Of a stretch of DNA of 64,000 bases, positions 54,733 through 57,257 are shown in pieces. The translations under genes and the position numbers were made by a program. Each line of letters begins with the position of its first letter. Positions within the stretch are counted from its first letter, which is position 1. The DNA is taken from assembly GCA_035308905.1 (NCBI GenBank), contig DATGFS010000038.1, forward strand, positions 1-64,000, in the 5' to 3' direction. The notes under the pieces were generated by a model. It was not told the origin of the DNA. It did no database searches and saw nothing but the letters and a program-made list of their open reading frames with translations. The DNA is from a bacterium (GTDB lineage Bacteria; Sysuimicrobiota; Sysuimicrobiia; Sysuimicrobiales; Segetimicrobiaceae).

Positions 54733-55563
54733 CTACGCCGGCTTGCGGGCCCGGACGAACGCGCTCATGAACTTCCGGTCGACCAGCGGCGCCACCGCCT
54801 CCACGTCGATCCCGTGCCCGGAGAGAAACTCCCGGGCGTCGTCCACGTCGTAGACGCGCGTGGGCTCGAGGGCGACGCCTTCGAAGCCCGCCTTGGCCAG
54901 CCTTGCCGCGTAGTCGGATTCTTCGAGCGCGCCGGCCACGCATCCGATCCAGAGCTCCATGTTGCGCCGGATCGCCTCCGGGACTTCACCGCGCACCACG
55001 ACGTCGGAGACGGCGAACCGGCCGCCCGGCCGGAGCACCCGGAAGGCCTCCGCGAAGACGCGGTCCTTGTCGCCGGAGAGATTGATGACGCAGTTCGAGA
55101 TGATGACGTCGACGGAGTTGTCCGGCAGCGGGATCTGTTCGATTTCGCCCTTCAGGAACTCCACGTTCGCGAGGCCCGCCTTGCGCTGATTCTCCCGGGC
55201 GAGCGCGAGCATCTCGTCGGTCATGTCGAGCCCGTAGGCCTTGCCGGAGGGACCGACGCGCTTGGCCGACAGCAGCACGTCAATGCCGCCGCCGGAGCCG
55301 AGATCCAGGACCGTTTCGCCGGGGCGCAGATCCGCGAGCGCCGTCGGGTTGCCGCAGCCCAGGGACGCCGCGACGGCCTCTCTCGGCAGGTCCGCGACGT
55401 CCTGGCCGGCATACAGGTTGGACGTGATCACGTCGCCGCCGCCGTCGTCCGTGCCGCAGCCGCAGGCGCTCCCGCAGCAACCGGCCTCGCCCGCCGAGGC
55501 GCGCCGCGCCGCGTTCGCGTACTTCTCGCGCACCACCAGTTTGATGTCCGCCGTCTCCGCCAT
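54733..55563 (-). CDS. arsM: Arsenite S-adenosylmethionine methyltransferase
   Basis: 276 residues. The SAM-binding motif is [16 protein letters not shown] at 85-100. The arsenite-binding cysteines are Cys70 (SLGCGNP), Cys158 (NCVINLS) and Cys208 (WIGCVAGA), matching the conserved set in ArsM. The N-terminal cluster Cys29, Cys30, Cys34 and Cys36 (GCCGSACGC) is common in bacterial ArsM. It methylates As(III) to methylated, often volatile, arsenicals. The ATG at 55563 follows GGTGGGGAG. The arsR gene is 59 bases upstream on the same strand. Confidence 0.94.
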
Positions 55564-55622: not shown

Positions 55623-55994
55623 TTACCGCCGGCTCGGCGACCGTCCCACCCAGGCGATCTCTTTCGGATCGACCGCGCCGCTCCGCGTGCAGCATTCCGC
55701 GTACAAGAATCCCAGCAGCGCCCGAAGCGTCTCGGCTCCCGCGGCGTACCGGAGGAACGTCCCCTCCCGCCGCACGGTCACGAGACCTTCGTGACGGAGC
55801 TTTTCGAGATGATGCGACAGCGTGGACGCCGGAATGTCGAGTTCGGCCTGGATCTCGCCGGCGACGAGGCCGTCCGGATGCGCGGAGAGCAGCAGGCGCA
55901 GGATCCGCAGCCGCGGCTCCGTCCCGATCGCGGCGAACATGTCCGCGTACCGGGCGACGTCCTCGGTTCCGTCCCGCGCCGTCGACTCGCTCAC
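55623..55994 (-). CDS. arsR: ArsR-family arsenic-responsive repressor
   Basis: 123 residues, winged helix-turn-helix ([30 protein letters not shown], about 42-72). The pair Cys101-Cys102 near the C-terminus ([11 protein letters not shown]) is where AfArsR-type repressors bind As(III); the canonical CVC of the recognition-helix type is absent, and the third Cys of AfArsR is not seen. It would repress arsM and itself until arsenite binds. It lies upstream of arsM in the same direction. Confidence 0.9.
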
Positions 55995-56039
55995 CGTCCG
56001 CCCACCCCGTCCGAAGTCCGCGTAATTTCCGTATTTCGA

Positions 56040-56111
56040 ATACTATAGAAACATGATCCGGCTGTCAAGTGCAGACCTGCAATTGACATTTCATGATCCG
56101 ATGAAGTATCT
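56040..56111. promoter_or_regulatory. Divergent promoters with a shared palindrome between arsR and a second ArsR-type gene
   Basis: Minus strand: TTGACA (56063-56068), 17 bases, TAGTAT (56040-56045) for arsR. Plus strand: TTGACA (56083-56088), 17 bases, GTATCT (56106-56111) for the regulator at 56142. The two -35 boxes end a 26-bp palindrome (56063-56088) with half-sites TGTCAA-n-TGCAG and CTGCA-n-TTGACA around a 2-base centre. ATGATCCG also repeats directly at 56053 and 56093, 40 bp apart. A repressor on the palindrome would block both promoters at once. Confidence 0.7.
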
Positions 56112-56141
56112 GTGATGTAGGCTCTACCGCGGAGGTGCGTG

Positions 56142-56834
56142 ATGCCGTATTCTTCCGACCCCGACGTGGCAGAAATCGCGTCGCTCCTCGGCGACCCGGC
56201 GCGCGCCGCCATGATGTACGCGCTGCTGGACGGCGGCGCGCTGTCCGCCACGGAACTGGCCCGGCGGGCGTCCGTGTCCGCCTCCTCGGCGAGCATGCAT
56301 CTCCGGAAGCTCGTGGGCGGGGGGCTGCTGGCCGTGGAGCGCTCAGGCCGCCACCGTTATCACCGGCTCGCCAACCGCGACGTCGCGCACGCCCTCGAGG
56401 CCCTCGGCGCCGTCGCCAAACCGCCCGCGGTCGTGGCGTTGACGCAGGCCACCACCTTGGAGGCGCTGCGCGCGGCCCGCACCTGCTACGACCACCTCGC
56501 GGGCCGGCTCGGCGTCCAGATCACGGACTCCCTGGTCGAGCGCCGTGTGATCGTCGGTACGGGTCGCGAGTACCGTCTCGGGCGGTCCGCTCCCCGGTTT
56601 CTGGCGCGGCTCGGCATCGAGATCGCCGAGGTTCGGAAGCAGCGGCGGGCGTTTGCCCGTCAGTGTGCCGACTGGACCGAACGGCGCGCCCACGTGGCCG
56701 GCGCCCTGGGGTCCGCGCTGCTCGCGCGCTTCGTCGAAAACGGCTGGATCGAGCCCATGAAAACAAGCCGCGCGGTACGGATCACCGCGGACGGACGCCG
56801 GGCGTTCTCGGCGCACTTCCGCGTGACAGTGTAG
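56142..56834 (+). CDS. ArsR/SmtB-type winged-helix regulator with a long C-terminal domain
   Basis: 230 residues, twice the usual ArsR length. The N-terminal domain (about 6-75) has GDPARAAMMYALLDGGALSATELARRASVSASSASMHLRKL, a winged helix of the SmtB class. A second part (about 105-230) has the TCYDHLAGRLGVQITDSLVERRVI pattern and a C-terminal winged-helix-like region seen in similar long regulators. The N-terminal CXC metal site of SmtB/ArsR is missing, so its ligand is unknown. GGAGGTG precedes the ATG at 56142. It faces arsR across the shared palindrome. Confidence 0.82.
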   Translation: MPYSSDPDVAEIASLLGDPARAAMMYALLDGGALSATELARRASVSASSASMHLRKLVGGGLLAVERSGRHRYHRLANRDVAHALEALGAVAKPPAVVALTQATTLEALRAARTCYDHLAGRLGVQITDSLVERRVIVGTGREYRLGRSAPRFLARLGIEIAEVRKQRRAFARQCADWTERRAHVAGALGSALLARFVENGWIEPMKTSRAVRITADGRRAFSAHFRVTV

Positions 56835-56870: not shown

Positions 56871-57257
56871 TCACACCGCGATCGCGTCCGCCTCGATCTC
56901 GACCAGCATCGCCGGGTCGACGAGCCGGCTCACGACGACGAGCGTGCAGGCGGGCCGGATGTCGCGGAAGACCTCGCCGTGCGCGCGCCCCACCGCCTCC
57001 CAATCGCCGGCGTTGGTGATGAAGATCCGCGTCCGGACCACGTCCTCGAGGCGGCAATCGAGTCCGCGCAGAGCCGCGCCGATGTTCTTCAGCACCTGCA
57101 CGGCCTGCGCGTACGCGTCTCCAGGCCCCACGATCTTCCCGCTGGCATCCGTCGCCGTGGTGCCGGCCACGTGCACGGACTGCCCGACCCGCACGGCCCG
57201 CGAGTAGCCGACGATCGGCTCCCACGGCGTGCCCGACGAATAATTCCGGCGCTCCAC
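56871..57257 (-). CDS. RidA/YjgF family protein
   Basis: 128 residues, the typical trimeric small protein. [23 protein letters not shown] and [30 protein letters not shown] are family segments, with the conserved Arg in VVRTRIF that binds the carboxylate of imine intermediates. RidA proteins deaminate reactive enamines/imines made by PLP enzymes, fitting a region rich in aminotransferases. The GTG at 57257 has GGGAGGTG 5-7 bases upstream. Confidence 0.9.

Follow-up and report, generated by a model that had tools for sequence, protein, structure and literature searches.

One of the nearest described parallels to the locus analyzed here is found in P. putida KT2440, where the footprinted operators of ArsR1 and ArsR2 at Pars1 and Pars2 overlap the -10 element of a sigma-70 promoter (PMC7994332). 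These two ArsR-family regulators are described there as having similar operators, with the two arsR genes heading separate ars clusters. On the protein side, AfArsR (PDB 6j05) and SpArsR of Shewanella putrefaciens 200 both possess a C-terminal Cys-Cys pair. AfArsR has three C-terminal cysteines (95, 96, and 102), whereas SpArsR has the pair without the third, an arrangement linked to a selective response to MAs(III) in PMC11868830 and PMC13236881. JemC of Tn10 and other winged-helix ArsR regulators of approximately 230 residues are longer members of the family.

The window, by which we mean the whole 64-kb stretch of DNA analyzed, is part of a 4.0 Mb genome (G000) and likewise carries a predicted ArsR operator over a sigma-70 promoter -10 element and two ArsR-family regulators with similar predicted operators. 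In contrast to the arrangement described for P. putida KT2440, the two regulator genes are divergent neighbors in the window, and the second, which we call R2, is of the JemC-like long type, unlike either member of the P. putida pair (PMC7994332). The 147-bp intergenic gap between arsR and R2 holds the stretch under study. We consider it probable that two adjacent, self-contained control units, with one operator for each regulator, explain this region. From its sequence, the locus looks like a fairly ordinary divergent pair of self-controlled genes accompanied by a curious lineage-specific palindrome.

The arsR-arsM genes and the divergent regulator R2

The arsR gene (55623 to 55994, minus strand) encodes a 123-residue AfArsR/SpArsR-like protein whose winged helix scored 66.6 bits against NF033788, above the family cutoff of 55, as expected of an AfArsR-type protein, and which matched the ArsR of PDB 6j05 with an E value of 1.1e-18. 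Downstream lies arsM (54733 to 55563, minus strand), encoding an arsenite methyltransferase (368.7 bits against NCBIfam PRK11873, cutoff 263); the profile query began at 55557, and the start ATG at 55563 was taken from the sequence. The only cysteines of ArsR are a C-terminal Cys-Cys pair (FLYAECC), and the same holds for all 11 family homologs (L036 to L046). The pair aligns with C95/C96 of AfArsR and the third cysteine of that protein is missing, so that ArsR has the cysteine set of SpArsR rather than that of AfArsR. By analogy, an ArsR with only the Cys-Cys pair suggests a methylarsenite sensor, which would fit its operon with arsM, the gene that follows here and that distinguishes the window from the AfArsR and SpArsR cases. 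The arsR-arsM pair was present in 12 of the 12 family genomes, and an operon with a probable methylarsenite-type sensor would thus be found in every sampled genome of this uncultured lineage.

R2 (56142 to 56834, plus strand) is a 230-residue ArsR-family regulator (HTH_20, 7.8e-11; NF033788, 58 bits, above the cutoff) whose gene is preceded by a ribosome-binding site, GGAGG, read from the sequence at 56131 to 56135 (plus strand). The protein joins an N-terminal ArsR helix-turn-helix to a C-terminal part with CYDH and CxDWxER, two stretches that define the JemC-like group by our own reading of the alignment. JemC of Tn10 is a full-length relative, with 37% identity over 97% of the length. Plasmid records with a relative of R2 numbered 894, in 810 of which at least 80% of R2 was covered, and the commonest plasmid form among the 40 evenly spread matches listed had 37% identity and usually lay beside tetR(B). 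The closest homologs (54-57% identity) were those of G001, G002, G004, and G009, none of which adjoins arsR.

Six residues of R2 (C115, H118, C175, D177, W178, and H184) did not vary in any of the 14 homologs aligned, and the two cysteines with nearby Asp and His make a thiol or metal sensor possible. The invariant stretches CYDHLAG and CxDWxERxxH resemble an internal duplication. Several plasmid relatives adjoin antibiotic-biosynthesis-monooxygenase, NIPSNAP, or hydrolase genes rather than arsR-arsM, and the neighbors of R2 relatives that we examined gave no pointer to arsenic as the ligand. The predicted structure of R2 had a mean pLDDT of 75 and a pTM of 0.49; a structure search with this model returned PDB matches to ArsR/SmtB-type proteins over approximately 80-97 columns, which left the C-terminal part unaccounted for. 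CdsR was considered as a relative and rejected, being a protein of 95 residues with a single HTH (PMC11009283) and not comparable with R2.

Predicted operators of arsR and R2

The arsR promoter reads on the minus strand as TTGACA-N17-TAGTAT, with the -35 element at 56063 to 56068 and a -10 element at 56040 to 56045 that matches at four of six positions; a spacing of N15 gives an alternative, TATAGT, matching at five of six. Covering the -10 element is an inverted repeat, O1 (56032 to 56053, minus strand), which differs by one mismatch from TATTTC-N10-GAAATA and is the predicted ArsR operator. To obtain a comparison set we took 55 arsR homolog loci, from which six exact duplicates and the window locus were subtracted. 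The consensus was found with at most two mismatches upstream of 29 of the resulting 48, and the remaining 19 comprised weak homologs (39-45% identity), loci where the 130 bp of upstream DNA held no such site, and members of the family in which the arms vary. Six of the 11 other family genomes had the site at this threshold, with L036, L038, L039, L043, and L045 diverging more. A TTGACA-like hexamer (at least 5/6) preceded the site by 13-15 nt in 21 of the 29 site-bearing homologs, and the TTGACA of the window is aligned in two genomes of the same genus (G001 and G002). The first-pass annotation had named this hexamer, which is the left end of a palindrome discussed below, as the arsR -35 box, an assignment borne out by its conservation among homologs.

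For a matrix we used 28 distinct sites matching the consensus and left the window out; the sites having been picked for that match, the strength of the matrix is partly by construction. O1 scored 30.4, within the training range of 29.3-44.9, and the next non-overlapping site in the 64 kb scored 3.0. Across the 4.0 Mb genome O1 was the best match, as the sole site with one mismatch, and eight others had two mismatches.

A separate motif, TTCA-N8-TGWA-N12-TANNNT, was found upstream of all four of the closest R2 homologs, where it ends in TAGAAT or TACAAT. The motif is founded on these four, and its -10 part, TANAAT at first, was loosened to TANNNT to accommodate the window, the counterpart there being TTCATGATCCGATGAA-N12-TAGGCT at 56090 to 56123. 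We take TTCATGATCCGATGAA (56090 to 56105, plus strand; TTCA-N8-TGAA) as the predicted R2 operator, O2, and TAGGCT (56118 to 56123, plus strand), whose position relative to O2 is conserved, as the candidate R2 -10 element, with three of six matches. The pattern occurred once in G000, at this locus, once in G001, and twice in each of G002, G004, and G009, with the R2 promoter included in all five genomes; the reversed pattern gave no match in the same five. It arose in 4 of 20,000 shuffles of the region. The extra matches in G002, G009, and G004 (L127, L132, and L133, respectively) are possible further targets of R2-like regulators.

Among seven more distant family homologs (group B, 38-43% identity), six had ATCA-N8-TGAT, and L118 was without an N8 motif. 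The upstream DNA of two further R2 homologs from 386 genomes was also examined. The TCA-N8-TGW spacing was present in 11 of 12 R2-like upstream regions, the window included, compared with 5 of 12 for the next spacing, in a count that left out the family homologs L124 and L125, both of which lack either motif. Outside these groups, TTC-N10-GAA stood upstream of 7 of 10 R2-like genes or operons, several times as part of a longer palindrome, and was missing from L139 (jemC), L141, and L143; the jemC stretch that was searched differs in this from the R2 region. The sequence comparisons establish that both motifs are conserved and where they lie, and the comparison of ArsR and R2 sites shows TTC-N10-GAA to be common to the two regulators, O1 and O2 each containing one. 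The 147-bp gap holds two of the six occurrences in the 64 kb, and two in a region of this kind appeared in 18 of 20,000 shuffles. For JemC-like long ArsR regulators we therefore predict an operator code of TTC-N10-GAA with the variants TTCA-N8-TGAA and ATCA-N8-TGAT, the relevance of which lies in the Tn10 member of the group being common on resistance plasmids.

Three smaller observations concern these upstream regions. In L114-L117 the start codon of the R2 homolog follows TAGAAT or TACAAT by 6-7 nt, where the window R2 instead has GGAGG, and this short distance suggests leaderless transcripts for those homologs. On two Cronobacter plasmids (L140:1680 and L142:1677), TATTTCGCCCGCGGGCGAAGCA or a sequence differing from it by one base lies upstream of a monooxygenase-regulator operon and is a candidate operator for the Cronobacter R2-like gene. 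The window and L115 have TNGACATTTCA in common, which hints that the DNA upstream of R2 may descend from one ancestor in the two.

From these arrangements we infer protein-DNA binding, the ligand, and the direction of control as follows. ArsR dimers would bind O1 over the arsR -10 element and block arsR-arsM until released by the binding of an arsenical to the Cys-Cys pair. R2 would bind O2 in front of its own -10 element and repress itself; as the center of O2 lies approximately 64 bp ahead of the arsR start that we predict, R2 would not be expected to block arsR directly. The weak R2 -10 element, matching at three of six positions, counts against this two-operator arrangement.

ArsR might instead act at both sites, binding O1 and, more weakly, O2, so that arsenic would have gained control over R2 after the gene was inserted. 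Extended to 56087 to 56108, O2 fits the ArsR arms with two mismatches, which makes it one of the eight two-mismatch sites in 4.0 Mb, and it is 33 bp from O1, with which it has TTC-N10-GAA in common; in P. putida, ArsR1 and ArsR2 each act at the promoter of the other (PMC7994332). Scored with the complete ArsR matrix, however, O2 falls outside the top 12 of the 64 kb, its core is already accounted for by the motif of R2 itself, and its flanks, which fit at 4/6, by our reading do so equally in L114 and L115, where R2 homologs do not adjoin arsR. We consider such cross-control possible, if on balance unlikely. Were ArsR to bind O2 as well, the locus would offer a traceable case of a gene placed under the control of a neighbor after insertion.

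The palindrome between the operators

Between O1 and O2 lies an imperfect palindrome of 26 bp with 12-2-12 geometry (56063 to 56088), TGTCAAGTGCAG-AC-CTGCAATTGACA, in which 11 of 12 pairs match and the outer ends are TTGACA hexamers. The first-pass annotation had correctly recognized it between two divergent ArsR-family genes, and had proposed that a repressor bound there would block the two -35 boxes together. A palindrome this good (12-nt arms, at most one mismatch, loop of 0-8) is seldom reached by chance, 6 of 3000 dinucleotide-shuffled versions of the 147-bp gap containing one, and the left end of the real one is formed by the arsR -35 element. The geometry is that described for SmtB/ArsR operators of metal-inducible operons (PMC6555750). 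Against these points, the palindrome fits the classical 12-2-12 consensus TANANTCAAATANNTATTTGANTNTA at 2 of 20 positions in register, which speaks against a classical SmtB/ArsR operator. The matrix speaks against an ArsR site, the best score in the region being -16.9 compared to 30.4 at 56032. No TTC-N10-GAA is found within the palindrome, both copies in the gap lying outside it, and its TCAA/TTGA separation is 14, not the 8 of the R2 motif, so that an R2 site, too, is unlikely.

The promoters argue in the same direction. The proposal called for N17 to a -10 element on both sides, which held for arsR (TAGTAT, 4/6) and failed on the plus strand, where N17 after the right-hand TTGACA leads to GTATCT, matching at one of six positions. 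The best plus-strand -10 candidates over N15-N19 reached three of six (AAGTAT at N15, and TATCTG at N18, 56107-56112, an alternative R2 -10 element). A promoter scan found no plus-strand promoter. The pair does not form a divergent sigma-70 set with a fitting -10 on both sides, the minus side giving 4/6 at N17 and the plus side at most 3/6.

Nor does the palindrome recur. At up to three mismatches there was no other copy in the 12 family genomes (G000 and 11 others), which argues against an operator present in multiple copies, and it was absent upstream of the arsR homologs and of the close R2 homologs. Titles and abstracts, among which few subscription papers were covered, described neither this palindrome nor any operator of the JemC-like regulators. 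Taken as the common target of one repressor, the palindrome thus fails to carry the motif of either regulator, and we think that it is probably not a shared operator; one regulator blocking both -35 boxes from it appears improbable. The guess of one shared operator is replaced by two sites, O1 and O2, that can be tested.

The first-pass annotation also placed direct repeats, ATGATCCG, around the palindrome at a distance of 40 bp and suggested that they were perhaps extra binding sites, either for cooperative looping or for the second regulator. A 9-nt repeat, CATGATCCG, does occur at 56052 to 56060 and 56092 to 56100 (both plus strand). The guess of a site for the second regulator was half right: of the two copies, the second falls within the predicted O2, and the first is at the edge of O1. 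Some 9-mer repeat appeared in 528 of 20,000 shuffles, which makes the direct repeat weak evidence. A composite switch, in which TTC-N10-GAA would be a shared code, ArsR would also control R2 through O2, and the palindrome would contribute to cooperative or looped regulation of the two promoters, seems to us improbable.

What the two-operator explanation leaves unexplained is the inner symmetry of the palindrome (5/6 pairs), which 0.7% of shuffles reached with both TTGACA ends fixed. The inner TGCAG/CTGCA pairs are not needed by two -35 boxes, and ancestry extends only to the six leftmost bases, as would be expected if the palindrome were either the operator of a third regulator or a functionless scar of insertion, arising for example by template switching. 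For a third regulator, the single copy in the genome and the family means that no regulon is visible. This reading, to which we give somewhat less than even credence, concerns the palindrome alone and is compatible with the two-operator explanation. The whole 64 kb contains 18 such arms (loop of 0-4), most of them GC-rich, compared with 2-11 in four shuffles; the palindrome is thus notable for its intergenic place, not its strength.

Descent of the arsR flank

In the two genomes of the same genus, G001 and G002, the genes from DinB to LigD stand in the same order, and direct comparison establishes that R2 is missing from this locus in both. There ridA, which in the window lies beyond R2 (56871 to 57257, minus strand; Pfam Ribonuc_L-PSP, 4.5e-28), adjoins arsR, and its stop codon TGA falls inside the TTGACA -35 element of arsR (L103 and L104). 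The window DNA upstream of the arsR -35 element is therefore new relative to both genomes, and, of the palindrome, this comparison leaves only the six leftmost bases as ancestral. With R2 absent from both relatives and the ridA stop within the -35 element, it is most likely that R2 was inserted here and that the palindrome formed at the junction. We infer insertion in the window lineage over loss in both relatives, the alternative, as the simplest reading. None of the 11 other family genomes had a second case of R2 beside arsR-arsM.

Under the two-operator explanation, the palindrome would lie between the operators, outside the transcripts from either predicted start, and, apart from its left end, the arsR -35 element, would have come with the insertion of R2 between ridA and arsR or arisen after it. 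In G009 and G007 (L106 and L110) a different gene, reading as an Nramp-type transporter, is divergent to arsR at the position of R2, which indicates that the flank of arsR changes often.
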